A stretch of 64,000 bases of DNA. Origin: Apiospora phragmitis (lineage: Eukaryota; Ascomycota; Sordariomycetes; Amphisphaeriales; Apiosporaceae). Below the pieces are notes generated by a model that did no database searches, was not told where the DNA came from, and worked only from the letters and a program-made list of their open reading frames with translations. Below, one piece after another: positions 16,835 to 58,830 of this stretch. How positions within the stretch are numbered: the first letter of the stretch is position 1; each line of letters opens with the position of its first letter. The translations under genes and the position numbers were made by a program. The DNA lies in contig JAQQWL010000015.1 of assembly GCA_038363925.1 (NCBI GenBank), forward strand, positions 248,001 through 312,000. Reading direction: 5' to 3'.

Positions 16835-19462
16835 CTATACCATTTCGTGTCGGTCGTTACTGCGGTTGCTGTTGCGGTCCATGCTTTGCCTGAGAGTCAT
16901 GGTTCGATGGAACAGGCCGCCGCGGCTGCTGGGAGCCTTACTAGCCTTACTAGCCGTCTTCTCGAGGTTGGCGCCGCTCGCGATCGCCTCCTCGGGGATG
17001 CGTGGGGGATGTACAAAGGTCGGGTTCTGCTTGCGAGCAGCGAAGACATCCTGGTAGAAGTCCATGTCGTTGTTGTTATTAAATCGCGACGAGTTCGAGC
17101 GCTGTCGACGAGTCGCAGTCATCTTGGAGTGGTCGACGGATTGCTGGCCGTAAGAGTCGGTCCTCTGTGGGGGCTGGATATTTGTCTGATAGACAGGGAA
17201 GTCCTGGCCGGCAATTTGCAGCTGCCTTCGTGGTTGCTGGATTCCGATAGCAGCCGTCTGCTTGGAGAGCTCGAGGGCGAATTTGTTGTGACGCGTGAGA
17301 CGAATCAGCTCGTTCTGGAAGCTTGATTTGTGGAAGGTGATGAAGTTGAGTGATATGGCGTAGGTGTCTTCGATCGTCGTCAACTCGGTAATGATCTTGC
17401 CGGTGTAGTCGCGTCGATTCGCAAGAACGAACTCGGTCATACGCGCCTGCAGCTCTTCGATCATCTCCTTGGGTGTGCCGAAGGACATGCGCAGCTTGAA
17501 CACGTCAGCCAGACTGCCGGATCGTCGGTGGTTGAGAATGAAGAGGGTGTTCAAGACCGAGTTGGGCGCCTGGACGATATGGCCCTCCATCTTCTTGAAT
17601 TCGGTGTACAGGAGGGAGATCTCCGTAACGTAATAGTCGTCGCCGGTTCCGGTGGCACCCGTGTTTCCGTAGACCGTGATACGGTCGCCGACGTCGAACG
17701 GATGCTTGACGAAAACAAAGATGATGGACTGCAGGAATTCCTGGGCAGTCGCTTGGAGGACCCAGGCCAGACCCAAGACGGCGGTACCGGCAGACGCCAA
17801 AGCGGCGCTGGCGGACGCCGAAATGATCGAGATGAAGACTATGACGGTGATGATGATGACGATGACAACAAACGTCTGGTCCAGCTTCTGAATGACGGAA
17901 TCCAGATCTTTCAGTGACGCCGTGATCGCTTTCTTCTCGCGGTGAACCTCGTCGCAGAATGCCTCAAGCTCTTCCAGAGATACATCGCCATTTAGGTCGC
18001 GGTCGAAGATAGAGAATGCGGCCTCGGCATCCTCCTCGGTCGGGAACGCAGGGCTTAGATCATCCGGCGTTAGTACATCTGCGCCGTCCTTGGCGTACGT
18101 GCGGAACAAACGACGGGCCAGGACTTGGGCCGAGCTCGAGTTGCGGAGGAGTTCCGACACGACCTTGCGGGGATGGTTGCTGAGCCGTACCTCACGGCCG
18201 GTGAAGTCGCCAGCCACACGGTTGGCCACGTCACCGACCTTGTTGAACGTTTTCCCCACTGTTTGCTGAAACTGTCGCAAGGGCGTCTTTGTCCCCGAAG
18301 CGTTGTACCCAGAGACCGATTCTTCGGTGGCCAGACGGTCTCCCGAGTACTGAAACAAGTGGACGAGGTAGGCAATGTACTGCTTGTTGGTGTCGATTCG
18401 GATCATGTAGGTGCGTTTGTGGAAGGTGTTGGCGATCCACTGGATGATCATCTTCTCCACGAAGTTCAGAGCAGCCAGGACGAACAAGGCGATGATCACT
18501 TTCTGCACAATCTCGATCCACGTGATATGGGGGAACCGATCCGGTTCAGGCGCAGCAACCTTGTGGTTGTTGACGATGGGTTTGAAGGAGATCAACACGG
18601 CCAACATCCAGAGGAACAGGGCGGTGTGCAGTTCCATCTGCTCGCCGATGGCCTTCCATTTCTTGGGGTTTCCCGAACCAAGTATCTTGGCGAAGAATCG
18701 GACAAGGAACGGCAGGATTGCCGTACAAATTCGTGCCGCCCATAGAGTCAGCCAGACGATCTCGAGCCAGATGCCAAACCACAATAGTTGCACGCCTCCG
18801 GGCCCGCCAATCACGGGCTGCTGGTCCTGAGGTAAGAAAATGCCGAGGAACACGGGGGTGAGCAGAATCAAGAAGATGGGCAACAGATAGAAGATGTATC
18901 GTGCGGCGCGAGGCAGCTTCTTGATCCGCTTGAGGGCGTTGAAGATCTTGCTGGGCTCCTCCTCGCCTTCTGGCGTCGGCAGTGCGTTGGGCAGGTTGTT
19001 GGGATTGGTCGGCGCATTGAATACGTCCTCCTTGATGATCTCCGAACGCTCTGATCGCCTCGATTGGGACTTGTTCAGGTATTCCTCCTGGTTGCTGATC
19101 TTGCGCTCGATGCCGAGCAGCGTCAAGTCGTCGTTAAGCCGAGCCGCATGGTCCCGACGATCCTGCGTTTCCCGGTCCTGTTGCGTCTCTCTGTCGCTTT
19201 CCGAAAGGACATCAGAGGTCACAGTAGGGGCCCGGGTCAATGTGTTCGAGGAGCCATCGTACTGTTGTGGTTGCTTCCCCGAATCGCCAGAGGCGTTGTG
19301 GTTGTGGTTCTGGTTGTAGCTATGGCTGTGGTTTTGGTTGTAGTTCTGGTGGTGATTCTGGTTGTAGTACTGATTTTGTGATGATGATGTTTCGGCCATC
19401 TCGAATGATGATTGGTGATGGAGATGGGGAGGCCCCGTCTCGAACGACTGCCGGGAAGCCAT
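16835..19462 (-). CDS. MscS-family mechanosensitive channel with EF-hand
   Basis: A single exon of 875 residues. Fungal MscS-like channels of this type (S. pombe Msy1/Msy2) lie in the ER and help control calcium during hypo-osmotic shock. The N-terminus is rich in His/Asn/Gln repeats (disordered). Membrane segments start at about residue 183 (YIFYLLPIFLILL) and continue in pairs to about 350. An EF-hand loop (DRDLNGDVSLEE) lies at about 483-496. The MscS pore helix is Ala/Gly/Ser-rich, at about 545-575, followed by the beta domain (HPFDVGDRITVYG). The order matches the fungal family and the length is typical. No intron is needed. Downstream of the beta domain is the alpha-beta region, then a polar tail. 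Assignment is confident; organelle location is inferred from homologues. Confidence 0.93.
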   Translation of the reverse strand: MASRQSFETGPPHLHHQSSFEMAETSSSQNQYYNQNHHQNYNQNHSHSYNQNHNHNASGDSGKQPQQYDGSSNTLTRAPTVTSDVLSESDRETQQDRETQDRRDHAARLNDDLTLLGIERKISNQEEYLNKSQSRRSERSEIIKEDVFNAPTNPNNLPNALPTPEGEEEPSKIFNALKRIKKLPRAARYIFYLLPIFLILLTPVFLGIFLPQDQQPVIGGPGGVQLLWFGIWLEIVWLTLWAARICTAILPFLVRFFAKILGSGNPKKWKAIGEQMELHTALFLWMLAVLISFKPIVNNHKVAAPEPDRFPHITWIEIVQKVIIALFVLAALNFVEKMIIQWIANTFHKRTYMIRIDTNKQYIAYLVHLFQYSGDRLATEESVSGYNASGTKTPLRQFQQTVGKTFNKVGDVANRVAGDFTGREVRLSNHPRKVVSELLRNSSSAQVLARRLFRTYAKDGADVLTPDDLSPAFPTEEDAEAAFSIFDRDLNGDVSLEELEAFCDEVHREKKAITASLKDLDSVIQKLDQTFVVIVIIITVIVFISIISASASAALASAGTAVLGLAWVLQATAQEFLQSIIFVFVKHPFDVGDRITVYGNTGATGTGDDYYVTEISLLYTEFKKMEGHIVQAPNSVLNTLFILNHRRSGSLADVFKLRMSFGTPKEMIEELQARMTEFVLANRRDYTGKIITELTTIEDTYAISLNFITFHKSSFQNELIRLTRHNKFALELSKQTAAIGIQQPRRQLQIAGQDFPVYQTNIQPPQRTDSYGQQSVDHSKMTATRRQRSNSSRFNNNNDMDFYQDVFAARKQNPTFVHPPRIPEEAIASGANLEKTASKASKAPSSRGGLFHRTMTLRQSMDRNSNRSNDRHEMV

Positions 19463-22400
19463 CCACGCAGTTGTATTATGGAAGAAATGCCAGAAACACG
19501 TAAGTCCCCTCTAGTATCAGTTATCCCCTAGATATTGCCAGTACGATGAGGCCAGTCAGTCATCCATGGACTAAATCCGGCCAGAGATGGTATGGTGACT
19601 CCAGTGGCAGCGAGGACACTGTTGTCGAAGGAATAGTCGGATGCCTCCAGCAAGGTTCTTTTTCTTCTTTCTCAATGGGATGTTGTTTATTCCGAGGGGA
19701 AGCAGCAACTTTTGTCGAGTGAAGAGGGCGCAAGTAGGAATGTGCTTGATAGCTGGGGAAGAAACAATGGGGAGGGGGATGCTTGGTACTGCAATTGCGT
19801 GCTGGAAACGAGTGTGATAAACCCCCAAAGAACCAGAGATCCGAAAGCACGAGAAGCCCGATGAGGAGACTGCTTAAACGATGGAGAAAAAGATGGAGAA
19901 CAAGGTCTCGATTCTTGTGAAATATGTATGAATAGACAATCAGCCAGTCTCCTTCCTTCTTTGGCGAGCGGGCGCTGGAGGTGTTTTTTTGCTACTGCGG
20001 CGTGCGCAACCACCAGGCGATGGCAATGGAGTATTCACAAAACACCCTCAATCCTCAATCCCTGCAGCCCCTACACGTATTTTTATGAGTGACATACCTA
20101 TCCCTGCCCAGGTCGCAGTTGGCCGGTAGGGGAACCAGAATCAGATATGACGCGGCAGGGCCTCCTGGCCTGTCGGGTCCACAGCTTGCTCAATTTTCTG
20201 ATAGGCTTGTGGATAGGCGATCGCATCAAGAGCAGTGCGATCCACTGATGCAGTCCACCAAGCCACCAGCCGATCTTGGCGGCGGGACCTGAACGCCACG
20301 CCTGGAATTAGCATGCCCCATGCTGCCAGTGAAGCAAAAGCAAAAGCAAGCAAGACGAATCCATGTGAGCGCGCCCTTCACCCTTCATTCCCGGGAGTCT
20401 GTACTGTGCCATGCGTGCGCAGCGAAACGCGGGATAAACCATCAATCAATCACTCAATGCCTAATTGTGCTTGTTTTGCATGTGCCAGTGTGCTCTGGGA
20501 ATTCTGCCTAGACGTCATATCGCATCTATGTCCCAAGCGGGTGCCGTCCATCATGGACGAAGTTACTAAGCACAGTCTTGGATAAAGCCGTTAAGCAGCC
20601 ATCGTGATTTGTGATCAATGGCCTGACACTGTGAGAGGGACCATGGTTGAATGCAGGGGCTGCTAAGAACTCGACACAGCACGGCGGTCGATACCGAACC
20701 ACCCTCCCTGCTCAGGGGGGAAAAGCAGGTGGCCCGTTCGTGGGGGGCAGTACCACGGACAGGTTTGGTACCGTCTCACATCCCAACTGCCATCGTTGAT
20801 ACTTACATATAAACAAACAAACAGCGTGTTCTAGACCATCTGATTATCTTGCCATGCCATTGACGGCTCTCACCGTACCAACACAATGCGAAAGAGATTG
20901 ATCGATCGGTGATAACACTTCGGAACTTTTCAATTTTCTCTCTCTCCGTTCTGTCCTGACACGAACCTCGGACGATAAGGGGGCCTCAACTGCACACTAC
21001 TGCAAGCCATTCAAGCCACCACCATACCGGCGCACCCTTCCCTTCCCTTCGCTTGACTGATAAGGGAAACCTTAAGCAATCGCAGGACACCATTCGATTC
21101 CGTTCAATCCCCGGGTATACATAAAAGCCCAACCGTGGAAATACTGGACAACGTCGGAACTATTGAGCGGTGAATTCTATTAGTCTAGCGCACCGTTGAT
21201 CCGGCGGGTTTCCCTCTTCAGCTTGCTTCTGTAGACGGAAGTTTGGTGGTTGGAAATGCTTTCGGGCGTGGAAAGCCACTCCACGGGAAGATGGATCACC
21301 ACGAGCGTTGCGCGCCACCACCCACCACCGAAAGCCAGAATCTCAAGACACGTTATTTCAGCTGAGCTAGGCTGACGTCACATCCCCTCGCTGGCTTGCG
21401 TTTTCCTGTCGTCAACTAATCCCGCAAACAACCTCTTTGCTACTAGCCACTGACGAAATCGCTGAACGGAATTTGGAAGTTCAGAGTTTAGGGGCTGTTC
21501 TACGCTTCGATGAGCCAACATGGGTGCCTAAAGTCATGTTTGCGAACAGAACATTATAGATAGGAGGTCCAGTAAATTGATCCGCATAGAAGAAAACCCC
21601 CTGATACATACCCGCGCATCTAACGAACCCGGTCTGGGTCACTTCGTGTTGGCGAAAGGCTCTGCAGTGCTCTGCCATGTGCCGTTCTTCCCGACCCGAC
21701 CCCACGAAAAATATCTCCGGATCACCGCAGATATCTGGGATGAAAGAAAGGGTCTTAGAGTTCACGGGGTACAGGTGGTATGGGAAACTGCAATCCTGAC
21801 GGGAATCCTCCACTTCTTCTGCACGAGATCACAGATGCGATGTGTAAGCTGCTGCAACCCGACCCGACCGGCCGGTAAGAATTGGCCGAGAAGGAAGAGC
21901 AGTTCTCATTTCTCACGATGCTGTATGCTGGCAAGACCACCGGCTCCATCACGTTCACAGCAAGCCTACCCACCATGAAGAAGTTTTTCCCACCGCCTCT
22001 ATGGGCCGGTCGCGAAAATTCTCTGTTTCCTTTGGTAGAAGCTCGGCTGGAGGAGGAGATTGCTGTCCTCGAATCATCAAGAACCGATCACACTATTTCT
22101 TCTCCCAAGTGCATCAGTGTGCCACCCGCTCGAGCCGTCTGTCCGTCTCGGCGCCGGCTCACCCACCCATCCTTGGTAGTTCGTCACAAGCGTGGGGGCC
22201 AAAGCAAATCCATTATGCATAAACCGCCTTGTGCAATTGATGAGGGAAGGGCGAGAAGAACTCGTTTCACAAAGAAGAGAGAAGATGGCAAATGAGTGGG
22301 CTGGGTGGATCGGCCAGCACAGCGATTCGGTTTGCCGCTTATAGCCCGTAACACCTAGACCTAGTAAGTACGTATATTTGGCTTTGATATAGCACCATCT

Positions 22401-23408: not shown

Positions 23409-26400
23409 CTACTCGTCGTGTTTGACCATTCCATCCGCACCACGCATCTCCAACCGTTCGTTCAAGACGGACGCCGTGTCATCGTCATCATCGTCGTCAT
23501 CTTCATCCCCATCCTCGGACTGTATGTCATCCACCTCACCGGACTGACGGACGTCAGCGGTACTTGCGCCCGCCGCGGGTCGGCGTTTCTTTTCGAAGTC
23601 CTGCCGATGAGCCTCGGCCATGATACGGCGGATGCTCTCGCCCCCGGGCCGGACGTCGGACCTCCGGCGCCGGCGCAGCCCAGCCTCATCGGCTGCGCGT
23701 GCGCCTGAAGCCGTCGTTTCGGCAGTAGCGACAGGCACGAGCTCGCCCGGTGCGGTACTGCTTGCTTGCTGTGCCGGGAGAGGAGCCTCGACACGGACTT
23801 GCCGGTCGCTCACGCTTTCGTCGGAGCTGGGGCGCTCGACCAGAGGCTCGTGGTCGATGTGGTACGGAAGGGGGACATCCCTGCTCGCTTTGTACTGGGC
23901 TACGTTGCCGCAGTGTTCGTTCTCGACACGAAGAAGAGCCCCACATGCCGCGGCGGGTGACCTCGGCGAAGCCCAGAAGAAAGGAGACAGCCGTGCTGTG
24001 TTGGGTGTCGTGTGTGAAGATGGCGTAGAAGATCCAGGCGAAGCGCAGGATCGGATCAACCACCATGATGAAGTAGTAAGGCCATCGGCGCTTGAGCGCA
24101 AGTATGTCACGCAGTAGGTTGTGCCGTGCGTCGGGCTGTAGGAGCGAGAAATCCATCAACAGATCCCAGATGGAGCAGTAGATGGCGTTGACGGTGCTGA
24201 ACGTCACGAACAGCGCCAGGTTGGAATGGGTGTCGTGCATGCGGTAGATGGAAAGCATCACAGCCGCTAGGATCGTCATGCCGTATTTCCCGCAGTTGAC
24301 CAGATGCGGGAACATATTCTTGGTATCGGCGTAGCGTCGGATACACTGGAACGCTCGCCAGATGGCCGGAACGGCGTTGAAGAAACCCAGCAGCCTGGAG
24401 TGGCTGGAATTGCACTGTGACGGATCGTTCCAAGAACGCGCGTAGAGGCAAAAGAACAGTTCAACGTTCTGGGGACGGTTAGTGAGGAAGTGCAGGGGGC
24501 GGATGGACGACTTACGCAGGTGGCGTACGTCAGAGAGCAGTACATATCGCCCAGGAAGAAATCGCGAAATTCGACTGGGAAAAGCCCGGCAAAGAGTAAA
24601 CGGTACTGGATAACCGGTCAGCACATATGTAGTAACGGTACAATCGGGCCACAGCCTGGACTTGCATGAGAATAGGCGAACCATTTCCGGCTCCGATGGC
24701 CCAGAACCGGCGCCGGTAATAGGATAAGCACGAGGGTGAAGAATATCAGGAGGACTGGGTAATATAGGAACATGTCGGGCGATCCGTATCGCGTAAAGTT
24801 GAGCCATATGAAGATGCCCAGGAGCAAAAGGCAGAAACTCGGGAATTCGGCCAGCTCTCGCCAGTCAAGGTGGTGCCGGGGGTCGAACTCGAAGATGAAA
24901 GGGTAGTTGACCTTATTTTTGTTCCAGAGGTAGCAGTCGCCGCAGAACAGGGCGAAAAGATACAGCATCAAGAAGTAGCCGCCGTATAACTGCATCAGGT
25001 ACGTGGTCTGCTCACGTACAAGCGGATCCGGGTCGAACAGGAGCTCCACGCCGTATACGAGACCCTGCAGCGTGAAGACCGCACCGGTGCCGATGAAGAG
25101 GCCGTTGAGGAAAGTGCTCCCGGACACGTCTTTCGGCCGTCGGGTCAGTCTTCGTAGCTTCCCGGCAGCGAGCTTGTGGTTTCCCTTTTCGAAGTATCTC
25201 GCGTACAAGTCCTCGACGGCAATGATGTGGCCGTCGAGTACATCGCTGTTCACGAACCAGGCCTTGTTGACCTTTTCGTTCATGTACTTGTACGGCGGCC
25301 TGGCGTTGACGGCCTTGTCGTACTTCTTGTTGAGCTTCCGGAAGGCTGTTCGGTTCAGTAGCGTGTACGACTTGAGGAGCTCAAGACCTCGGTAGAACTC
25401 CTGGAGAGCCAGCTTCAGCTTGCGCTTTGCCGTGCGGTAGGGCACATCGTCGTCGTGCGGCTTCTTCACGTAGTCGCGCCCAGACTCGGCTGACCTGCCA
25501 CTGAAGACCGGCGTCCTAGGCATCTTCATCAAGGCCTTGGAGTTTGGGCCAGGCTTGAAGATCTTGGACTTGATCGGATCCATCCAACATTGTGCACTCT
25601 CACCGTTGGATTTCGTATGGCCATGACCGTTTCCTACTTCGCCCTTGTTCCGTCGTTTTACGTCGGCAAGCTCACTAGCTCGTCTGTTGCGCATCTCGTG
25701 CAGCTGTTCACGGAGAATAGCCAGTCTCTGTCCCGCCTGTTCCTCTTTCTGCTTGTAGAAAGTCTCGACCTTGTCGAGTTCCCCATCTAGGAAGTCGAAG
25801 AACTCCTGCTCTCTCTGCCGCACCGTGTCCAGAGCATACAGCCCCATACCGCTTCTCTCGCCTTCGTTTCCGGCAAGGTCACTGGCACCAGATGAGAAGA
25901 GGCGTCTCGGGCGCATCGAGGAAGTCCGGTTCATCATGGGAGAAGGGTCTGGTACGGTCGCCGTCCTGTTATTTGTTGGAACCGGGGGATCCATCGACAA
26001 GCTCCTCTGGAGGGTTAGGCGACTCGAACCCGCAGCAGGCTCATCCATCGCCGGTCCGGGTAATGCGAACGCATTCTTATTGCTGCCAGTCGCGGCCAAG
26101 GCCAGCGGAGACTGAGATGGTGGTGTAGGTACGAAGCTCCCATAGTTCCCGGCGTTACCAGGCGACTTGGTCAGAGATTGGCTCTCGTTCCTTGTCATGG
26201 CCACGGGCCTGGTAGTCGCAGCGCGTCCCACGTGGCCTGGGCCTTCATTTCCTTGCCGAGACTCAGGCCCATCCTCGGGCTTTGGGGTGACTCGGTTCTG
26301 GAAAGAGGTCGGCGTCCTCCGCGGACGCAATTCACCCCTCCGGCCTAACGGGGTAGCATTCGCCTTGGCGATGGCGCGGGTGACGGACTTGACATATTTC

Positions 26401-26732
26401 TTGCCGGCCTTGTAGTTGAGATACTTGATTCTCCATTCTAGTTACTGAGGTTAGCTGAGACGGGCGGATGAGTAACGGGGTCGACCCCGCAAACCAGCGG
26501 TAACAAGCAGCCGAGAGAAGCGAGTTAACGAGGGAATGAGGGAACAGGTAGCAAGACGATGATGATATGTGATAGCGCCGATGCGACAAGACCGCGCAGG
26601 TTTCGAAACAAATCCTTGCTTGTTGTGATTGTGGGTATACCTGCAGCCAGCCTAAGATCCAGCATACAGACAGGCAAGGCAGTAAAACTCACCTGGCACC
26701 AAGTCCTGCTCAAGCTCCTTTGCGAATTTCAT
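23409..26732 (-). CDS. SYG1: SPX-EXS protein (SYG1/XPR1 family), frame broken once
   Basis: Membrane protein whose SPX domain senses inositol pyrophosphates and whose EXS domain exports phosphate in animals (XPR1). Exons: 26693..26732 (MKFAKELEQDLVP), 24666..26437, 24516..24605, 23409..24468. The SPX core is seen at the N-terminus (WRIKYLNYKAGKKYV), at about 227-250 and at about 353-390. Membrane helices start near 450, and the EXS core includes WFAYS and VENEHCGNVAQYKASRDVPLPY. The second intron has a GC donor (see its own entry). In the last exon the frame shifts by one base at the C4 run 23939..23942: removing one base restores RGMW-ALLRVENEHC and an acidic tail, 986 residues in all. Total length minus one base is divisible by three, consistent with a single extra base. 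As written, translation would leave frame and stop at 23686. Confidence 0.88.
24606..24665 (-). other. GC-AG intron in SYG1
   Basis: A 60-nt intron with donor GCAAGT (24665 downwards), GCTGACC branch site and CCAG acceptor. Only this join links WFAYSH to YRLLFAGLFPVEFRDFF, which is continuous in the EXS family. No GT donor nearby keeps the frame. Confidence 0.8.
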
Positions 26733-27556
26733 GACGTCAAACGCATGTTCAAATAACAACCACCACCAAAAGAAGGTTCTCTCGCGGCTGTGGCGTTGGA
26801 TGCTTTCGAGGAACAACAGAGGGAGAATGGGAATTGGTTTCGTACAGAGGTGGTTAAATTAAAGACGTACAGGTACCTGACTATAGGTTCCGTGCCAATC
26901 GAACCCAATGGCTTGTGAAAATAAAGCTGGAAGGAAACCTTACTGTAGGAAATGCGACGGTTATGTAGCACAGGGCCCCCTTTCCGGGTCCTGATTGGCC
27001 AGTGCCTACGCCTGATCGGACATGACTAAGACCAACCAAGCCTAGGAGTCAGAATAGTGTCGATTCTACCATCTACCTGGTAGCCTCGCGATAACAAGAA
27101 CTCGTCGCTGCTTGGTACGACAACGGAATCAGCAGTGCCCGGACCAAGTGGAACAACCAGTGAAACCCTCGAGGCGTCCAACATTAGTCAATCGGTGTAT
27201 AGTCGACTGTTTGTTCCAGCTCGCTTTTACTAGACGACTTTCCCGGCGGTGCAATTGAGGGTCCGTCCTCCAGGCAGCCTGGCCGTCTTCCCGACTGGTG
27301 TACCTGGCCCAGCAACGCCATCCATCCCTGCCCGATGCTCAATTTCCCGACATAGGCCTGTATCGCGCCGGCCTAAGGACTCAGTAGCTGTTGGGCCTTT
27401 GTTTCACTGGCACGTACATACTCGGGAGTCTTGGTAGGTCATGTATTTGAAATGTCGCAGCTGACGCCGACCGACCTGTTGCTGATGTGGCACTATCAGA
27501 TCCGCATCAGCCTGTCAGCCGGGTCTCACCGTTGAGCCTATCGATCTCCGCCTGCT
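26733..27556. promoter_or_regulatory. Divergent intergenic region SYG1 / GH18
   Basis: 824 bases between two divergently transcribed start codons, so it must hold both promoters. I recognise no specific binding site with confidence. Confidence 0.4.
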
Positions 27557-28615
27557 ATGGCATCTTCATCCAGAGGCGCCCTACCAAGGATAGTCATATA
27601 CCACCAAACCATCCATGACCCCAATGGAAGACACATATCCATACTGCCTTTGATAAGCCAACCGGGGGTTGCCGTAACGCACATCATAGTAGCGGCCCTC
27701 CACATCAACGATGATCCAAATGGCCTGACCCTCAACGACCACGCGCCTGCAGACCCCAGATACATCAATCTCTGGGCGGAACTTCGCATTGCGCAAGCAA
27801 GCGGCGTCAAAGTGCTTGGCATGCTGGGCGGGGCCGCCAAAGGTTCCTATACCCGACTCGACCAGGACCACTCATCCTTCGAGGCATATTATGCCCCCGT
27901 TTACAACGTCATCAAAGAAAGGGGCCTCGACGGCATTGACCTGGACATCGAAGAGGCCATGTCACTGGGCGGCGTCATCCGTCTGATTGACCGCGTACGC
28001 TCCGACTTTGGCCCGGACTTCTTGATCACGCTGGCCCCCGTCGCCGCCGCCCTCCTGGATGTTCGCCGCAACCTGAGCGGCTTCGACTACGAGGCCCTCG
28101 AGGTGATGCGTGGCAGCCAGATTGCTTGGTACAACACGCAATTCTACTGCGGCTGGGGCGACGCCAGCACCCCCATCATGTACGAGATGATCGTCGCCCG
28201 AGGATGGGCGCCCGAGAAGGTCGTCATCGGTCTCGTGACGACCGCCGAGAACGGTGCTGGGTTCGTACCGTGGGAGCTTCTGAGGGCGAACCTGACGCTC
28301 TTGAACTTTCAATTTAGTCGCTTTGGCGGCGTCATGGGCTGGGAGTATTTCAATAGCTTGCCGGGTGGTAAAGACAAGCCGTGGGAATGGGCTCAGCGTA
28401 TGACCTCATTGTTGAGGCCCGGCGATGCTGCCGGACTCGGCGAGCCATTTGCCACAGAAAGTACGAGAACGGCCGGAGCAGAGACGACTGATATGTCCAA
28501 GACACTAAGCTTAGGCGTTCAGGTGGCCGATCCGGATCTTGGCACATCGGCAGATGTGCCCGTACCTGCGGATTTCGACTACTTCTCAGACTTCTCAGCC
28601 GGAACTGACGATTGA
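27557..28615 (+). CDS. GH18 glycoside hydrolase, chitinase/ENGase-like, no signal peptide
   Basis: A single-exon protein of 352 residues. The GH18 catalytic motif DxxDxDxE is intact: DGIDLDIEE at 125-133 with Glu132 as the predicted acid/base. Other family features are the beta-strand VKVLGMLGG near 85, a Trp/Tyr-rich region (QIAWYNTQFYCGWGD), and GGVMGWEYFNSLPGG near the barrel end. There is no hydrophobic N-terminus (it begins MASSSRGALPRIVIYHQT), so the protein is probably cytosolic or unconventionally exported. Similar short fungal GH18 proteins act on chitin oligomers or, as ENGases, on N-glycans; the sequence alone does not separate these. The last ~50 residues after the barrel are polar and acidic. 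Confidence 0.85.
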   Translation: MASSSRGALPRIVIYHQTIHDPNGRHISILPLISQPGVAVTHIIVAALHINDDPNGLTLNDHAPADPRYINLWAELRIAQASGVKVLGMLGGAAKGSYTRLDQDHSSFEAYYAPVYNVIKERGLDGIDLDIEEAMSLGGVIRLIDRVRSDFGPDFLITLAPVAAALLDVRRNLSGFDYEALEVMRGSQIAWYNTQFYCGWGDASTPIMYEMIVARGWAPEKVVIGLVTTAENGAGFVPWELLRANLTLLNFQFSRFGGVMGWEYFNSLPGGKDKPWEWAQRMTSLLRPGDAAGLGEPFATESTRTAGAETTDMSKTLSLGVQVADPDLGTSADVPVPADFDYFSDFSAGTDD

Positions 28616-36663: not shown

Positions 36664-38682
36664 ATGAAGCCCTACTTCGGCCTTCGTGGCAAACAGCTCA
36701 ACTATGCCATCGGCATCATCGCAGGATGCGACTTTCTGCTCTTTGGTTATGGTAACGGCTCTTCCTTTTTCCACAAGTACTCTGGCAATGGGCCACTAAC
36801 ACAGAAGCAGACCAAGGTGTCATGGGAGGCATCCTGACGATGCGCAACTTCCTCGACGACTTCCCTGACATCGACCCTGACGGAGCGACTACTCGGGCGC
36901 TTAAGAAAACGCGCTCCGAGACCCAGGGCATCTCTGTGGCGGCCTACAACCTTGGCTGCTTCTTGGGCGCCGTCATCACCATCTGGATCGGAAACCCGCT
37001 GGGCCGCAGGCGCATGATCCTGCTTGGCACCGCCATCATGGTCATTGGCGCCATCCTGCAGGCGTCGGCGACCACCTTACCGCACTTCATCATCGGCAGG
37101 ATCATCACCGGCATCGGCAACGGCGGCAACACGTCGACCGTGCCGACGTGGCAGTCCGAGACCTCGCGGTCGCACAAGCGTGGCAAGCTCGTCATGATCG
37201 AGGGTGCGCTCATCACCTGTGGTATCATGATCAGCTACTGGATCGACCTGGGTTTTAGTTTTGTTCCCGGCAGTGTAGCCTGGCGTTTCCCGCTGGCATT
37301 CCAGATTGTCTTCTGTCTGTTCATCTTATCAACCATCTGGTGCGTCCTCCCCTGTTGGACTGTTGTCTGGTCCCAGAACAGAGTTACTAACCCCCAAAAA
37401 GGAACCTGCCCGAGTCGCCGCGATGGCTCGTTCTTAAGGACCGAGAGGATGAAGCTCTTGACGTGCTTGCTGCCCTCGCAGACACGACTATAGATGACAA
37501 GGATGTCCGGAATGAGTTCATCGCTATCAAGGATACCGTACTGGAGATGAAAAAGGGCCGTTTCCGAGATCTATTCACGCAAGGAAAAGACAGGTTTGTC
37601 CCGGCCCCCGTCATCGTCCACTCCAGGCGCTGACATTGCTACAGGAACTTTCACCGCACCTTGCTTGGCTATACCAACCAGATGTTCCGGTAAGTTACCT
37701 CCTCGCCCCACGAAATGCATGTGTGCTCATACTGACCTGCGTCTAGTGAGTCAAACACCTGCGCTGCCGATGCGCTGCCGATGCGCTGCCGATGCGCTGC
37801 CGATGCGCTGCCTCAGTCTGCCCTTGCTCTGGACCACTTACTGACACGACCGACAGAACAAATCTCGGGTATCAATCTCATCACCTACTACGCCCCTGTG
37901 ATCTACTCCGGTCTCGGGATGAGCAGCTTCATGGCACGTCTTCTGGCAGCCATCAACGGGACGGAGTACTTCATCGCTTCATGGCCTTCCGTGTACTTGG
38001 TAGAGCGGGTCGGGCGTAGAAAGCTCATGCTGTTCGGCGCGGCCGGCCAGGCTGCCAGTATGGCAGTCCTTGCGGGTGTCAATTCGCGGCCTGACAGCGC
38101 CCCCTGCCAGATCGCCGCCGTCGTCTTTCTCTTTGTCTTCAACACCTTCTTCGCCATCGGCTGGCTCGGTATGACCTGGCTGTACCCCGCCGAGATCGTC
38201 CCTCTACGGATCAGAGCCCCTGCCAACGCCCTGTCCACTTCAGGTCAGTATCACCGGTGGAGACTCTGAAGAGATGAATACTGACGTGCAATAATCGTAT
38301 AGCCAACTGGATCTTCAACTTCATGGTCGTCATGATTACCCCGGTTGCCTTCGACAGTATTGGGTACCAGACGTACATCATCTTCGCCGTCATCAACGCT
38401 TTCATGGTCCCGAGCGTCTACTTCTTCTACCCGGAGACGGCCTACCGGTCCCTCGAGGAGATGGACGCCATCTTCCACAAGGTGGACGGCGCCGCGGCGT
38501 ACTTCCAGGTCGTCGGCGTGGCGCGTAACGAGCCCCGCCGCTACGGCAAGAACGGCGAGTTGCTCATCGCGTACGAGGAGACCGAGGAGCACAAGGCGCA
38601 CGTACACCACGGGGAGTTCAAGGGGGCATCGGCTTCGCACAGCGAGGGGGATGCGGAGAATGGTCGCGGGGGAGTGATGTAG
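36664..38682 (+). CDS. MFS sugar transporter with a nested twin intron
   Basis: Plasma-membrane proton-sugar symporter type. Exons: 36664..36751, 36811..37339, 37402..37593, 37645..37688, 37857..38243, 38303..38682; 539 residues, 12 membrane helices expected. Family signatures: GYDQGVMGG across the first splice, GNPLGRRRM (loop 2-3), PESPRWLVLKDRE (central loop), QMFQQISGINLITYY (helix 7), NWIFNFMVV and PETAYRSLEEMD (end of helix 12). All simple introns are GT-AG, and three have CTAAC or TGAC branch motifs. Between exons 4 and 5 the helix-7 signature is restored only if two nested introns are removed in sequence (see separate entry). The C-terminal tail is acidic, His-rich and cytosolic. Substrate cannot be told from the sequence. 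Confidence 0.9.
37689..37856 (+). other. Spliceosomal twin intron (stwintron), donor interrupted between bases 1 and 2
   Basis: An internal intron 37690..37746 (57 nt; GTAAGT, ACTGACC, CTAG) lies inside the donor of an external intron. Its removal brings G37689 next to TGAGT (37747 on), creating a perfect GTGAGT donor. The external intron then runs to CGACAG at 37856 with a TACTGACAC branch region; it is 111 nt without the internal one. Joining C37688 to A37857 gives Gln-Gln-Ile-Ser-Gly, the family consensus. Removing only the internal intron leaves a 37-codon low-complexity insert in frame. Confidence 0.85.
37761..37812 (+). repeat. 11-bp tandem repeat inside the external intron
   Basis: About 4.7 perfect copies of GCGCTGCCGAT lie within the external part of the twin intron. 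It lies in intron if the splicing model is right. Confidence 0.9.
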
Positions 38683-41600
38683 AAGGGGCAGGGGTCGGAG
38701 GGGTAAGAAGACATATGCATAGGCCTTGTGTACAGTGGCGTGTCGGATTCGACTCATGTCTTCCGATATCTCGACTTAAAATCAGGACTAGGAAACAAAT
38801 ACTGGATAATGCAAAAGTAAATACATAACCGTAATCAAGTCCATCAGACTACTTCACCTTGGAGTTCATTGGCACCCAGATCAGGGCTAGCACGTCAGCG
38901 GCGTAGTGATAACGAGCAGCCGAGTTCAAATATCATGCTAGACATATAGAGGCTGTTTCGGTAAGCAAACAAGTTTCGTGACAATATCTGCTGTTACAGG
39001 GCGCACCGTATGAATTGGTATTCATCCTACAACCTCAATGTTTTGCTGGCCCTTTCTTTGCCTGATGCTTTTCTGACGCCAGAAATGATTTGATCACAGG
39101 TGCTGCCATCTGGAGTGTTGGCCTGACATAATCTTCTCATACTTGGGAGGCGGGCCGAACAGGTTGCCTTCGAGACGGTAATGAGGGGGGTGAACCTGGT
39201 ATAGGACCGCAGAGCATAACATCACAATATCGTCTCGACTCCGGGCGTGATAGTTTGGCAGTGTGTAGATCTCTTGAGTTATTGCTCTATTACCAATGTC
39301 CTCGGCCGTGGTGGGGCTGGTAAGGGGCCGACGGCGCTCGGGGTCTGAGTCTGAAGAAGCCCCTGTCTGTGAAGAAGCCCTTGTCTGTGAAGAAGCCCCT
39401 GCGTCTGCTGCTAGATCACGGGTAATAAGATGCCTTCTCTAGCCAAGCGCCGTTCATGCGGCGTCTGCGGCGGCGAGCCACGCCCCAAGGTGAATACAGT
39501 TGGCGGGACAACAGCGCTCAAGACTGGTTCGTTTGCTCAGGTCTGGATTGTCGACTTGCTCGCGCGGTCGTGGTGATGCTCGGCCTGCTAGCCCGGGTGA
39601 GGCTTCTTCTTTGTTTGTATCTAGTCCTTCTGCATATTCTCATTCGAATACTTTCTCGTTGCCTTTGTATGCCTACCGGTCCAACGAATCTTCTCCGATG
39701 ATTTCTACCGCAGGGTCCAAAGTAAAAGGGGCTATGCTTTACTTTTGTCAAACTTACCAAGTGTATAGCTATGTTGTTCAACGTCTTCGCGCGCGTATCT
39801 TCTTCATGCGCCTCTTCCTCCGCGTATGAAGACACTTCCCACCGGCCATTCTTCCGGTTCCGTCGAAGCTGCCTCGGCCATACTACCGTCGGTCTGCTTT
39901 TTCAGATGACAAATAATCGAGCACCGCCTGGTCTCCAACCTGCTACATATCCGTACCTTCGATTCCGAGATGTCACAGTGCTCAGATGGATGATAGCCAC
40001 CGGCCAAACCGAACCTCCAGCACGACATGGACATCGACGGTTGATCCGTTTCACTCAGTCAGTCACCGAATGCCGGAAAAGCACATATTGTTGGCTCCTA
40101 CAGAATAGGGAACGTTCATGGTGTGATAGTTGAGAAAGTTTCCATGGCGTCAGAGGTTCCGGATCCCACAAATGCTTTCGACGCCGATGTTCCAGGACAA
40201 GAACATCCGAGATGGATGCTCATTCATCGCGCCACTGACTAGGGCTCGGTGCGCTCTGCTTTTGCCAATATACTCATCTCCGCACTCAGCTATTAAAATG
40301 CAGAGCATATAGCCATCCTTCCCATTATTGTAATTACATTCCTTATTATGGATTTGGTCTCATAATTGTCGTCGGCAACGAGGTGGGTATACGAAGGGTT
40401 TTTCCCGCAGCATCCATGCATACATGCTACTGACAGAACGAGACACAGGGCCGGTAACTCGCACTGCCTTTCTTTAGCTTCTAGTAATCGATTCTCGGCG
40501 AAGTCGAACAATCTTCTTTGTGGGGGCTCCAGGTTTGTGGTATCTGCAGGACAAAAGGGGAATGTTAGCAAGGTGGTCATCGGGATATCCTTAAGATATT
40601 TATTTTGCCTTCCTGGACTAGCCGAGGGCCATCAGGAAGACCGACAGGCCCAGGGGCGTAACGATCGCGGCCAGCTGGCGGTTGTCCAGCAGCTTTATCA
40701 TCCAGGAAGTTCGAATCGCCGTTATCGGTTTATGATTGGTCCATGGTAGGTGGCGTCGACGTTGAGCTAGTGACACCAGGGGCAGGGGGCTTAGTTTCGT
40801 CTAAAGGGGTTGATGTCCTACCCGGTCTGATCATACAACAGAAAGCGCGCCTGATCTAGCCAAGATCCTTGATTAGGGGAGCTAACAGATACATGCTGTG
40901 TCGTACTCGCATCAATTCAACATCACAGATGGGACAGTGTGTAAGTGTTTGAAGCGTTTTCACTAGAACGTCCTGGAAAGGGTGTGATGTCAGTCATATT
41001 TGTAGCTCCAGCCGAGCCATCATTTTCATCGTATCTTTCATAACTCTATCCAAATTACTATGCGATAATTTCACTTGTATTTCACTTCCGAGAAGCGGAT
41101 AGATCTGGGCCCCTGGAAATGGACTGTCAGTTAGGATTTCAAGACATGATTTAGGCGCCAAGCTCGATATGAAGCAGATCTAGCTACCTACAAAAGTCTT
41201 AACAAGACCATTCCTCGTAAAGTGTGTGTCACAGGGAGTGTTGCTCTGTGAGAAAGAAAGATGGCCATTTCTTGAAAGAATCTGGCCGCCTGCCAAAGCA
41301 TTGTGGAGGGACCTCTTCATGTCGAGGTTTGATTTGGGAGAGGAAGGGGATCTTCTAACGAGGGGACGATGTCAGAGGCTCGCCGGTATGGGTGGAGGTG
41401 GAAGATGAATGTGGTGTCCCCAAGTGTGGAAATGGTGATGGCGAGTATGGTGGGTTATTCCCCTGTAGATCTGTATCCTCCTTACGAATTAAAAAATCAT
41501 ACTGCAGAGCCTTAACACAATCGATGAGAATGACATATGTGCTACATACAAAGAAGGATCTAAAGGCCTGACCTCGTGGACTTGTATGGGACATGGATTG

Positions 41601-41963: not shown

Positions 41964-43528
41964 ATGGCGCCCGGAAGATTCCCTTCGCGCGTTGGCCGCA
42001 ACCATCGTGGCGGCGGTCAGCAAGACCAGCAAAGTCACGCTGGTCAATACGCACAACCTCAAGCTCAGTCTCAGTCTCACCCTCAGTCTCAACCTCAGCC
42101 TCAGCCTCAATATCAACCTCAAGGTCAGTACACAGGTCCCTACCAAGCCCCGCCAACATATGGCAATGCTGGTCAGTTACAGCCGATCTATGGCAGTGCT
42201 GGATACAACCAGCCAAATTATTGTAATGCGGGTCAGTCACCGCCGATGTATGGCGGTGCTGCTTTTTACAATCCCCCGTCCCCAGCCTACCAGCAAAGTC
42301 CCTATCTGCAGGCTCCGTTTTATTATGGTGGTGGTTTCCCATATGCCCAGACACCTTGGGCTCCTCCTCTGCTGATGGCTCCTCCGCCGATGGCTCCTCC
42401 GATGGCCCCCCTTCTGCCAATGGCTGCTCTGTCGATGGCTCCTACTGCTCCTCCTGCCCCTCTTCCTGCACCTAATTACTGTACAGCCGAATTCCCTTCT
42501 CTCAGGGAGACAGGCGTCATGCAAAGTGGGAAAGTCGGCGCGATTTCAAATTTGGATACGGTCAAGACAGTAGTTTTGAACCTAGTATTCCCCCCTCTGT
42601 CACCGACAACCCTTTGGGGGTCTCCAAGAGTGCTTGGATTTGGCCTCCGAATGGCGGCGCGCGAAGACACATTTTCTGTGGAAATTGTCAAACGCAGCAT
42701 CCTCCCGAGTTATGCCGTGGTCCTCTGGGTTCCAGAGGCCGACTTAATAATTGTGGGTTCTGTGGCAAGAAAGGTCATCTTGTTGAGGGTTGCTATAGCC
42801 TGGAAGGTAACAAGGATAGAGACCGATGGTTGGTCTACGTTGTTTGGGAGTTTAGACAGGGTCTGGCTCCGATGATCACAAAACTGGACTATTCGACCAA
42901 GGTGCCTGGCGATGAAACCAAAGGATTTATTCGGAAACCGGTGCTCAATCCTACCCTGGCAAAAGCGTGGGAGAGAGAAGTTATCTCTCTCGACAGAGCT
43001 GCCGGACGTGGGGCCTACTGGAAGCGGTTCAGGTGGACGAGTAGGTTCAAAAGACGGATCAAGGCTGTTCTGGACGAGTTGCCGGACGATCCGACTGTCC
43101 CGCAGGATTTCAAGAACCGAGGCCCGCTGCCGTCGAAGGTTTCCAACCAGGGTGATTATGGATTTGCGAGTGTCGATCCTCTGAGTATTCCGTTGATGTA
43201 CAACCAGAAATGGGTCCTATTTGAGAATGCCCCACGAGATCCACCTGAAACCAATCCCTTTTTCAAGCTTGTAAATGGCTGGGAGGAATCCAAAGAATCT
43301 CAGACGAGTGACCAAGAGGAGCGCGATCAAGTTATGGGCCTGGATAAGAACCGCCGGGCGACCCGTCAGCCTCGTCAACAGGAGGCAGCGATGTCGGCTT
43401 CTAACCCTGATGAGATGGGAGCGGACGACATCAAGGAAGAGTATGGTTCACCTCAGGCAGTAGATGTAACAGCTCTGCATTCTTTGGTAGAAACAAGTTC
43501 CATCAAATCTGAGCCCAAGTCACCTTAA
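41964..43528 (+). CDS. Paired zinc-knuckle protein, copy A (family unrecognised)
   Basis: N-terminus: RGG-like and Gln/Pro/Ser repeats, then Tyr/Asn/Gly and Met-Ala-Pro-Pro repeats (low complexity, typical of RNA-binding or condensate-forming proteins). A W-x-WPPN motif near 42640 leads into two zinc knuckles at about 42676..42798: CxxC-x3-H-x4-C and CxxC-x4-H-x4-C (NCGFCGKKGH). A folded-looking half follows (RKPVLNPTLAKAWEREV, GAYWKRFRW, QKWVLFENAP), then a polar tail. The frame of the N-terminal part and that of the rest differ by one base; the change lies between 42476 and 42515, probably a missing base near the GG at 42513. Repaired length is 521 residues. Copy B aligns over most of the length, which proves both frames are coding. 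Nucleic-acid binding is inferred from the knuckles. Confidence 0.65.
42055..42125 (+). repeat. Hexamer-type CCTCAG/TCTCAG repeat in gene A
   Basis: Imperfect six-base repeats encode alternating Gln with Pro or Ser. This is coding low-complexity sequence, not a transposon end. Confidence 0.7.
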
Positions 43529-45808: not shown

Positions 45809-47569
45809 ATGTCGACACCAGAACAAGACTATTTTCTCAGTATCTGGCAAAAGGCCCTTGAATCGCTCGTACAAAAAGCAGGAGGCAATGAGCCTCTGAT
45901 TAAAATAACGAAAACCATCATTCGCCAGTATGAAACATAGTTATCCGGCGACAGGACACCCAGGTTAGATTTCCTGTGGTTTGTCATTGCAACACTCTGG
46001 TCCACCTGTAAGTTGTTGCCCTTCAGTTTTCCTTTCATTCGCTTTGCTTCTGGCCTGATGCTGACATGGTCTACAGTCTGTGAAGGGGACGACCAACTAG
46101 AAGAACGCAGGCCTCCACCGCAAGGAATTGCACCAGAGGCCGATATGTTAACATGTTCTGTTATAAGGGAAGTCACGATAGAGAAGTATTCAAAGGTCGA
46201 TGATTGGATCCAAACTTTCCTGCGAGTCCCTTCAAGTAGGCAACCCACAGCTTCATTTCCCCGGCCACGCGGAGGTATGGCTGAGTCTCAATGGGCGAAG
46301 CCCAACCCAACCACATCCGGATTACTAGCCACGCAGACAAGCGTCGCGAACCACCCTCAGAGATCCCTAGCCGCACAGACAAGCGTCGCGACCCTTCCTC
46401 AGAGAGCCCAAGCCGCGCAGACAGGCGTGGCGATCCCCCGTCAGCGAGCCCAAGCCGCGCAGACAAGCGCAGCGATCCCCACTCAGCGACCCCTAGCCGC
46501 ACAGATCAGCGTGGCGATACCCCCTCAGCGAGCCCAAGCCGCGCAGACGAGCGTTGCGAAACGAGCTATTCAATCAAGCAGTGGTCCAGGATCGGACCTC
46601 ACAGTGGTCGAGCCAAAGACCAAGAAACCTCGGGTAACCGAGCCGGTTGGGAGTATTAACCTGCCGTCTTTGGGCCTTCCACCCGTGCACCCTGGCGCCT
46701 GCGTTAGCTGTGAAGTCAAGCTGCCATGCGACGTCAAGGTGTCAGAATGTGTTGCGCCATATATGGTAATCCTGGGCAAGTTCCTGGGAGTATTTATCCA
46801 TGTCTCCGAGGGCCAGAACTCGGTCCAGATCAAGGCCCACCAACTCAGGGGCGATCAGGGTATGGGAAAGGAAATCCTGGACTTGAACAATGAGTTCAGG
46901 GTACGCCGCGCGTACAACATCTTTCTGGGGTGGACAGCCGACATGTATCAGAACGGAAAGGCTAAAAACTTGGCCAAATTTGTTCAGGACGTATTGGCCG
47001 CTGATGCCAGTGACATGGTTACCCAAAGCAAAAGGTTGTCCGAATCTATCAATTGCAAGGTAAATATGCAATCGCAAGTGGCGCCTCCGGACGAATACCC
47101 GGAGAACTCTCATTTCTTCACTCCAAGGCACGGAAGCGCTGCGGAGCAGAGGCAGAATCAAGCAGCGCGGCAGCCCGTCGAGGAAGTGGCTCCAGTGAGA
47201 CCCAACCCTCCGGCGGGCCAAACGCTGTTGCCCCATCAGAGGAAACAGCTGCCAGCTATGACGCAAGACGCGCGGCACGGCATATCAAGAAGATATTCTA
47301 TCGTGTCGGGATTGCCATTCATCCGATCCCTCGATGACGAAGATGAGTCCAACAAGACCAAGCCTGCCAAGGATGATTTGATAACGGCTATAGAAGAGGC
47401 CAAGAAGGAGTCTATGGGGGCTAAAGTCACCTGGGGCAAGCCTACCAAGGGCGAGGGCGAAGAGGCTACGGAGGAGGCCGAGTCCACGGATGTCACGCCT
47501 GCCAAGGGCGAGGGCGAGGAGGCCACGGAGGAGGTCTCGATAAGCGAGGTGGGTGTGAAGAGTGGCTAG
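45809..47569 (+). pseudogene. Companion protein downstream of copy A, 42-bp repeats, in-frame TAG
   Basis: Exon 1 45809..46007 begins MSTPEQDYFLSIWQKALESL. A clean 69-nt intron (46008..46076; GTAAGT, GCTGACA, CTACAG) leads to exon 2, 46077..47569. The frame is consistent across the join but codon 44 is TAG (45938..45940), after RQYET; CAG to TAG is one possibility. After the stop: LDFLWFVIATLW, CEGDDQLEE, a segment with IREVTIEKYSKVDDWIQTFL, six 14-residue repeats, a basic patch (KTKKPR), a core of about 150 residues (VKLPCDVKVSEC, APYMVILGKFLGVF) and an acidic Glu-Ala-Thr tail. No family is recognised. If translation starts later, or if exon 1 is spliced differently, the gene may be intact; for that reason the pseudogene label is tentative. 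Confidence 0.45.
46325..46560 (+). repeat. 42-bp coding tandem repeat
   Basis: About six copies of a 42-bp unit encode a 14-residue motif close to AAQTSVAIPPQRAQ. Because 42 is a multiple of three the frame is kept, and all other frames stay open too, which produces false opposite-strand frames. Units differ by a few bases, so the array is not very recent. Confidence 0.85.
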
Positions 47570-51549: not shown

Positions 51550-53073
51550 ATGCCACCAAGAGGAACCTATCGCAGCGGTCGCCGGCCATCAAGAGGCGGC
51601 CGCCAAGGCCAACAAAGAAATAGAAACCCCAATGACAACAACGATGGTGTGCAAAACAGTGCGGCCTGTCAGGCCGTAGCACAACCACAAAAACCAGGTC
51701 AGTACTATGGCTATCCTCCATATCCCCATGGGTACGGTCCTTATGGACATCCCTACGACGGTGGATATGGATATGGATATGCCCAACCACCTTGGGGATA
51801 CGGACAGCCTCCGCCCCCGGCGATGCAGGAGAACCCTAACGGGCAGGCGCTGGTATTCGCACCCCCTCCACCCCCAGCAATGCAGATGCACCCTTACGGA
51901 CAGGCACCAGCATATGCACACTCTCCACAATCAGCTGCTGAAGTGACGAACCCGTATAAAGATACGGATCCTCGCTATGCAGAGTGGGAGCAGAATCGAC
52001 CCTTCAGCTTCGGTCAAGGACAGTCGACTGGTTCCAAGCCAGCTCTGTCCAAGACCAAACCCAAGACCGCTAAGAACAAGCCCAGGGCCGATCGAGATGA
52101 TATTGGAGATTATGACATGAACAAGCTGCCTGCAGCATGTTGGACGTGGCCTCCAAATCTCAAGGAAAGGCGGGCAATCTTATGTCGAAACTGCGGTGTT
52201 AAGCACCCCCTGAACTGTGTCGTGGTCCACTCGATCCAATCGGTAGACTACCAGGATGCACGTTTTGCGGGAGCCAAAAGCACATCATCGATGTCTGCAC
52301 CCGTCTCAAGCAACAGCGCGAGCGTTCACAATGGATTTTATACTTGGCATGGAAATCTCGACAAGGTCTAGCTCCTCTTCGTATCCTGCAAGACTACTCA
52401 GGCGAAGTGGCCGGCGACGACGTCAAGAGACCAGTGCTAAACCCCGTGCTGGCTAAGGTCTGGGAGCGAGAAGTCGTATGTCTCGACCAGGCAGCCAAGC
52501 GTGATCCATATTGGAAGCGGTTCGAATGGAACATCAACACCACCATGCCGCTCGGCAACGTGGAAGTCGATTTGTTGCCAGTTGGCCCAACCATCCCTCC
52601 GAATGTGGTGAACAAGGGGCCACCCAGTTGGTATCAGGCCTACAGGAAGGATCCAATGCCGGACCACGGGTATTTTGCAGTTGACCCCTTGGATAAGTAT
52701 CACAAATACGACGAGAGATGGGTCGTGTTTGAGAACTCAGAGAGGGTGCCAGCAGATACCGAGAAGTCCTGTGCAAAGTCCTTTCCAATGTTCCAAGACT
52801 CGGTTCTTACGTCTGTTGTTGTTAAGGCTGAGAAAAGGAGAGACCGAGACGACGATCAAGAGATGCCTGACAGACAGGATTTGGCAGCTAAAAAGCACCG
52901 TGGGGACCATTATAAGGACGTCTTAGCTGAAATAAAAAAAGGCTCAACCCCTTAGCCAAGCCTTCGAGGGTACCATCCCCTTTGACGGGGCTATCGAAGT
53001 AGACGACAAGACCCTGGCGGATGTTGTTGCCAAGGCGGATGCAATTCAGAATCCACTGAGCCAGTGCAACTAA
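51550..53073 (+). CDS. Paired zinc-knuckle protein, copy B (frame broken twice)
   Basis: Paralogue of the gene at 41964. N-terminus MPPRGTYRSGRRPSRGGRQGQ, then Tyr/Gly/Pro-rich repeats, RYAEWEQNRPFSFGQGQ, a Lys-rich stretch, and WTWPPNLKERR. Zinc knuckles at 52183..52220 (CRNCGVKHP...LC) and 52257..52300 (CTFCGSQKHIIDVC). Then VKRPVLNPVLAKVWEREVVCLDQAAKRDPYWKRF-type sequence shared with A, and a C-terminal VDDKTLADVV motif echoing VDVTALHSLV in A. Two breaks: one C missing from the run 52206..52210 (restores HPPELC), and one A too many in the run 52934..52940. With both corrected the length is divisible by three (507 residues) and the frame ends in TAA at 53071. As written, the first frame stops at 52371. 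Function unknown; RNA or DNA binding inferred. Confidence 0.62.
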
Positions 53074-57682: not shown

Positions 57683-58830
57683 ATGGATAACAAGAACTCC
57701 TCTTCCATCTGGAACCGCCGCCCCAAGTAAGTTCTGTCTTCCCGCGAGATTCGATCCCGGCGCTTTGTTTGGCTAACACGTCAATTTTGTGCGTTTAGTA
57801 CTAGTAATCTTTCTCTATCGACGCCCCAGACCGACCCCTCCACCGCCGCTAGGGACTTCTCATCTCTATCTTCCGCCCGCCGCAATGGCGGGCCGACCTC
57901 ATCCCACGGAAAGCCCAACCCCTTCTCGGCAACAACCTCGGGCAGCGGGCTAGCCTCTCCGACCGGCGGAGGCTCTAGTGCGTTCGGCTTGGGATCCGGT
58001 GCCTTTGCGTCGTTCGGCGCTGCTGGCAAGGGGCCTAAGACGCCTGGCAATCCCTTCGAGATGGCCATGGGCTCGGTTGGGGGTGGTAAGAAAACCCCCG
58101 CCACCGAGAAAACCTCGTCCGAAGCACTGAGATCTGTCTCCGGCAAAGCGGGCTCCGGACCGTCCCACCCTCTACGATACACCTGGTTCTTCTGGACGAG
58201 GCCGCCGATAAGCAAAGCCAATGGCCGAGTGGACTACGACAAGACCCTGCACCCCATGGCCAGGGTGACGACAGTGGAGGAGTTCTGGACCGTCCACCGA
58301 CACCTAAAGCGACCCTCGGAGCTGCCCGTCGTAACGGATTACCACTTCTTCAAGGAGGGCATTCGCCCGATATGGGAGGACGATGAGAACAAGGAGGGTG
58401 GTAAGTGGACACTGCGGATGAAGAAGGGTGTCGCGGACCTATACTGGACGGAAACCATGATGGCCCTGATTGGGAACGCACTCTCGGACGGAAGCGAGGA
58501 GATGAACAATGCTATCAACGGAATGGTCCTGAGTGTGCGCAACGGCGAAGACATACTCAGCATCTGGACGTCTGGCACCGGTAGCATTGTTCTCAAGGTT
58601 CGGTATGTGTATACTACTCCATGCCCTTGCCACAACCTGGCTTCTAACTATGGGACTACAGGGACATGCTCAAGGCGTGGCTGAAGTGCCCCCAGAACAC
58701 GATTATCGAATTCAAGAGCCACACGGACAGCATGACGCAGCGCGCGCAGATCGACGAGCAACGCCGCGAGAAAGCTGCCAACAACTATAGCAACGACAAC
58801 AAGCGTGCTGGGGCTAGCAGGCAAGCCTAG
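57683..58830 (+). CDS. Class II eIF4E (4EHP-like) cap-binding protein
   Basis: Exons 57683..57726, 57799..58602 and 58662..58830; introns of 72 and 59 nt (GTAAGT to TAG, GTATGT to CAG). 338 residues. A Ser/Gly/Thr-rich N-terminus of about 120 residues precedes the eIF4E fold: HPLRYTWFFWTRPP, VEEFWTVHRHL, FFKEGIRPIWEDDENKEGGKW, MNNAINGMVLSVR, DILSIWTSGTGS, CPQNTIIEFKSHTDSM. At the position of the first cap-stacking Trp of class I eIF4E there is VDYDK, that is Tyr, as in 4EHP/eIF4E2; the second stacking Trp (PIWEDD) is kept. Class II members bind cap more weakly and often repress translation; the role here is inferred. Cytosolic. Confidence 0.92.

Follow-up and report, generated by a model that had tools for sequence, protein, structure and literature searches.

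Spliceosomal twin introns (stwintrons) of the [D1,2] type, in which the donor of an external intron is split between its first and second bases by an internal intron, make up almost all stwintrons described to date according to the abstract of PMC12403724. This is the commonest stwintron type, with more than 1500 reported from the Hypoxylaceae in section 3.3 of PMC9024468, and these figures do not bear out the preliminary description of the locus presented here where it calls stwintrons with an interrupted donor rare. One [D1,2] stwintron spans three classes, as stated in the abstract of PMC5639578. According to the introduction of PMC12403724, splicing of the internal and then of the external intron has been validated in other [D1,2] stwintrons, and the same article describes the detection in RNA, again for other stwintrons, of distal-site missplicing that leaves one G behind. 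The locus that we describe below is a further example of this arrangement, already well known in fungi.

From the protein matches we take the source of the DNA to be an Apiospora or a near relative; the genus belongs to the Apiosporaceae, Amphisphaeriales, Xylariomycetidae. Within the window, by which we mean the whole 64-kb stretch of DNA analysed, a sugar transporter gene begins with an ATG at 36664 and its stop codon finishes at 38682, the gene model containing five intervening sequences. With both nested introns excised the mature product has 539 amino acids (a 1620-nt open frame), matches Pfam Sugar_tr over residues 25-471 (8.7e-117) and is 91% identical over its full length to the STL1-named records of Apiospora rasikravindrae, A. 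saccharicola and Apiospora sp. TS-2023a. The parts of the gene that matter here are the following.

36664..38682, + strand: sugar transporter gene, MFS, STL1-like, start to stop codon (Pfam Sugar_tr, full-length Apiospora records and gene model)
36752..36810, + strand: intron 1, 59 nt, restores FGYDQGVMGG
37340..37401, + strand: intron 2, 62 nt, restores IWNLPESPR
37594..37644, + strand: intron 3, 51 nt, restores KDRNFHRT
37689..37856, + strand: almost certain [D1,2] stwintron, 168 nt in total, phase 1, dividing the first Gln codon of MFQQISG into C and AA
37689..37689, + strand: first base, G, of the split external donor, which would stay behind upon one-step use of the distal sites
37690..37746, + strand: internal intron, 57 nt, GTAAGT...ACTGAC...CTAG
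37747..37856, + strand: remainder of the external intron, TGAGT...ACTGAC...CAG, with the next exon opening with AA
37760..37812, + strand: 11-bp minisatellite TGCGCTGCCGA, 4.8 copies, 100% matches, inside the external intron
38244..38302, + strand: intron 5, 59 nt, restores LSTSANWIF

Exon 4 finishes with CAG ATG TTC C and is followed by G37689, and the exon after 37856 reads AA CAA ATC TCG GGT, opening with AACAAATC. Between them lies a full U2 internal intron, with the G before it and the remaining donor bases, TGAGT, after it. Excision of 37690..37746 joins G37689 to TGAGT and so makes a GTGAGT donor, exactly as first described, right to the base. The external intron that results (G37689 plus 37747..37856, 111 nt) has its own branch-like ACTGAC and its own acceptor, the CAG at 37856, and donor, branch-like site and acceptor are present in both introns. 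At 57 nt the internal intron falls within the 51-62 nt spanned by the four remaining introns of the gene, and the external intron exceeds these in length. The likeness between the internal and external introns is weak (local score 9) and we therefore do not claim a duplication. Rfam gave no match in the window. The 168 nt fold no better than shuffled sequences (z 0.51), and because 133 of the 200 shuffles fold at least equally well we do not count as evidence the predicted pairing of the first 7 nt with a stretch close to the external branch site. Exactly complementary stretches of at least 7 nt are absent from the 168 nt, the only pair found being GTAAGT/ACTTAC.

The open frame left by removal of both introns includes GYTNQMFQQISGINL. 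The restored MFQQISG stretch aligns with FQQFIGIN in GlcP and FQQITGIN in STP10, both solved transporters, and we take it to be helix 7 of the family. To list the splice paths we allowed one or two successive GTNNGN...AG excisions within 37645..37950, each of at least 40 nt and with a YTRAY branch-like site, keeping intron 3 fixed. Three of the nine products were open and only nested removal, through CAG37856 after the internal excision, yielded MFQQISG, in the 539-residue frame; among the listed paths both introns have to be gone and a single canonical intron is insufficient, in agreement with the earlier claims that nested removal restores the motif and that no single GT-AG intron can reach it. 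The outcomes foreseen for the simpler paths were also obtained. Excised as one intron from first donor to last acceptor, 37690..37856 shifts the frame, which then runs into a stop after residue 338, and excision of 37690..37746 alone retains 37 additional codons in an open product of 576 amino acids. With nothing excised at 37689..37856 a stop follows residue 285. Under looser criteria we further enumerated single introns of the GC-AG and AT-AC kinds. A GC donor at 37656 used with 37856 places QQISG in frame but loses eleven residues (RTLLGYTNQMF), and a GC donor at 37668 gives LLEQISG; neither product is family sequence.

The split of the donor between bases 1 and 2, another feature of the preliminary description, is also recognised by the published 'model A' search expression for [D1,2] stwintrons (PMC9024468, section 2.1). 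Applied unaltered to both strands of the window, the expression matched once, exactly at 37689..37856, with 0.09 matches expected per window from 100 first-order Markov simulations, and elsewhere in that genome it had no match in the 99,582 bases of 26 further loci, two of which overlap. In Hypoxylon 90 of 282 matches to the [D1,2] expression were authentic, as given in section 3.1 of that article, and for this reason a bare motif match stands at about one in three. The frame test and the orthologues add to the match at 37689..37856.

Taken with the orthologues described below, we conclude that 37689..37856 is almost certainly a [D1,2] spliceosomal twin intron, from which two ordered rounds of U2 splicing would restore the transporter. 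The basis for this is what we observe in the sequence elements, in the frames that the paths leave and in the matching anomalies of the Apiospora models; from these we infer in what order splicing proceeds and that the nested structure is conserved across the genus. Because fungal splice sites pair across introns, the internal intron would be spliced first and would build the external donor. The U2 spliceosome, acting by intron definition, would thus remove 37690..37746, bringing G37689 to TGAGT, and in a second round would remove everything from the new GTGAGT donor through CAG37856. ATG TTC C would then be joined to AA CAA ATC, restoring helix 7. One-step use of the distal sites would leave G37689 in the message and shift the frame, and the transporter pre-mRNA must very probably undergo the two splicings in order. 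It is very unlikely that the intermediate lacking only the internal intron leaves the nucleus and is translated into a minor isoform 37 residues longer, a switch in which the length of the output would vary with minisatellite copy number.

Protein models from related fungi bear on the same codon. Each record stands for a 90% cluster, and the comparison covers these representatives. A first protein search (E up to 0.001) returned 5221 proteins, and among the best 120 of these all 114 records not named as Apiospora, some of them nameless, are intact at the junction (QQ[IV][SCT]G), following the pattern [NS]Q-x-[FYA]-QQ[IV][SCT]G[IC]N with no insert or gap. All six Apiospora-named records (P0001-P0006) in the same 120 are faulty there. 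A second search with exons 1-4 as the query added, among the best 120 of 2920 matches, the Apiospora-named records P0241, P0242 and P0244, which are faulty too. Among the matches listed, none of the nine Apiospora-named records shows the correct junction, and all nine deviate from the family at one codon, in five different forms. At the junction P0004 and P0005, from A. kogelbergensis, have KDRCSEQISG, and the window yields exactly these letters when exon 3 is joined to ATGTTCCG and then to the distal acceptor; in these models the extra G would have been kept and the frame rescued by omitting most of exon 4. P0001 (A. rasikravindrae) terminates in AIPTRCSEQISG, and the same sequence is obtained from the window by reading exon 4 one frame off across the distal junction. 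At the same position P0002 (A. saccharicola), P0003 (A. sp. TS-2023a) and P0006 (A. marii) have MFR-ES..., and P0241 and P0242 (A. arundinis) have MFR-EF... and terminate at 295 residues. The R-E-[SF] form would fit CG joined to TGAGT(C/T), as expected from removal of the internal intron only. P0244 (A. hydei) reads MFRPNTDASTIEQISG at the junction, and we give it little weight because the same model contains further frame faults. P0006, like P0244, looks wrong elsewhere too.

A nested intron with its extra G, common to the genus, would account for these patterns together, and the nested arrangement itself, judging by the protein models, seems to be common to Apiospora. Occurrence at one position in orthologous genes is the comparative criterion of section 3.2 of PMC9024468. 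Since all nine Apiospora records are anomalous, all 114 others are intact and KDRCSEQISG can be reproduced from the window, the stwintron has probably been conserved, and mis-annotated, within Apiospora, and it is probably this nested intron that explains the faulty public gene models of close relatives at the 37689..37856 junction. The Apiospora models cannot be treated as independent of how they were annotated, as five of the nine have one style of locus name (PG9xx); this suggests a single project, and the errors may share a pipeline. Neoarthrinium moseri, from the same family, has an intact junction in both of its listed records (P0007 and P0080), and nothing therefore points to conservation beyond Apiospora. 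Two nameless fragments at 90-91% identity (P0334 and P0339, among the best 120 of 2920) stop short of the junction. Transcript-derived fragments were searched across the junction with a 200-aa query, and none of the best 120 of 1217 is Apiospora-like; within the same 120 the best full-coverage match has 73% identity and the highest identity is 80%, in P0127, at 83% coverage and with the junction intact.

These models also allow other readings of the locus to be weighed. Were 37690..37746 the sole, ordinary intron, 37747..37856 would be coding and would place 37 Cys/Ala/Asp-rich residues in helix 7. The frame of this insert is open in this genome, making a long in-frame product compatible with the DNA, and three of the Apiospora models have a shorter insert that likewise begins R-E-S. 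However, the 37 residues would interrupt a conserved stretch, between F and QQ, where none of the 114 non-Apiospora-named records among the best 120 of 5221 has such an insert. A branch-like site lies within the insert itself, and a CAG falls precisely on the conserved codon. The 11-bp unit of the tandem array in the insert, a length that three does not divide, speaks against a coding role. In A. arundinis both models stop after MFREFPSRPLCAA, and the openness of the insert is for that reason probably not kept. We regard this reading as extremely unlikely. Alternatively, one long intron, 37690..37856, might be removed through the distal sites, in which case the gene would be a pseudogene or the G an error of sequencing. 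PMC12403724 documents distal missplicing of [D1,2] stwintrons with retention of one G, and P0001, P0004 and P0005 fit a distal-site junction. Against this, the frame shifts to a stop after residue 338 while the remainder of the transporter gene is intact, and this reading does not account for the further set of intron signals lying between those sites; an error private to this sequence is disfavoured because models from other Apiospora genomes imply the extra G as well. It is, in our judgement, extremely improbable. Two serial, non-nested introns with a microexon between them, as P0002, P0003 and P0006 appear to be annotated (MFR-ESHAALPMRCFSHA-QQISG or close variants), have practically no chance of being correct, as the lone open two-step serial product from the window depends on a TGAG acceptor and on an intron of 41 nt, and a long insert persists in it.

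The stwintron, as we take 37689..37856 to be, appears to stand by itself in the genome. A 301-bp query found only itself in the assembly (52.67 Mb, 19 contigs) in a search that skips simple repeats and very common words, and similar copies of the kind that mark sister (propagating) stwintrons were not found elsewhere in that genome. Among the genome's sugar-transporter genes two paralogue edges were compared base by base. In one paralogue (L015) a single GTAAGT...CTAG intron breaks the coding sequence 4 nt further on, between CAG CA and G, and in the other (L019) the break made by a single intron lies 10 nt further on. An exact 22-mer of two TGCGCTGCCGA units is confined in the genome to the array at 37760..37812, where it has 3 overlapping matches. 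Three relatives' models have ALPMRC at the position of the array, which would fit a shorter array of the TGCGCTGCCGA unit, and on this account the array has probably grown within this lineage.

The rest of the window resembles an ordinary fungal chromosome region. Ten other frames were scanned against Pfam, with the following matches.

3793..6606, - strand: UBA-like
14477..16033: DHHC palmitoyltransferase
16838..19510, - strand: mechanosensitive channel
24621..26441, - strand: SPX/EXS
27536..28612: GH18
57731..58681: eIF4E
60265..61914, - strand: CAF-1 subunit A

Two related stop-to-stop frames on the + strand, 42476..43525 and 52203..52952, lie about 9.7 kb apart and share 45% identity over 190 residues, having the appearance of a divergent local duplicate. 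Upstream of each lies a Q/P/Y/G-rich frame, each has a C..C..H..C-like stretch, and Pfam matched nothing in either. A 42-bp repeat at 46327..46560 (5.6 copies, 81% matches) lies within a 542-aa stop-to-stop frame (45941..47569, + strand), in which Pfam also matched nothing, and is possibly a 14-residue protein repeat. Downstream of the transporter gene an 18-bp unit is tandemly repeated 2.8 times at 39352..39401.

This locus adds a probable position-conserved [D1,2] stwintron for Apiospora. It also illustrates a practical cost of such introns, all nine Apiospora transporter records found being off at the junction, and models that disagree with one another at a single codon could be a cheap stwintron screen for annotated proteomes. 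The external intron, with its minisatellite, offers a natural case for the limit that two-step splicing may place on the length of the second intron. A literature search for 'twin intron' with 'Apiospora' returned no match. The main texts of PMC9024468, PMC12403724 and PMC8469720 make no mention of 'sugar transporter', 'Apiospora' or 'Arthrinium', and those of PMC5639578, PMC6616335 and PMC7138796 contain none of 'sugar', 'transporter', 'Apiospora' and 'Arthrinium'.

Comparison with the described systems places the locus among them. The alternatively spliced [D1,2]/[A2,3] stwintrons in the Background of PMC5639578 begin with GG, as does 37689..37856. The [A2,3] route set out there requires a G as the first base of the downstream exon, and as the exon here begins with A (AACAAATC) that path is closed. 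With the sister [D1,2] stwintrons that have near-terminal inverted repeats, as PMC12403724 presents them, our locus shares the splice logic and the predicted misspliced product retaining one G; in contrast to them, no second copy of it was found in the genome and it has no exactly complementary stretches of at least 7 nt. Since it is without a similar genome copy we group it with the 'uniquely occurring' stwintrons and not with the sister ones. The uniquely occurring [D1,2] stwintrons of the Hypoxylaceae described in PMC9024468 are mostly conserved in position. Our locus differs from them in occurring in Apiospora (Amphisphaeriales), in carrying a minisatellite in its external intron and in being predicted from the sequence. 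In the same account they have the same layout of G, internal U2 intron and rest of donor, and branch-like sites of the same motif; their lengths run from 114 to 313 nt, a range that includes the 168 nt found here, and like them 37689..37856 is without a similar copy in its genome and is apparently common to related species.
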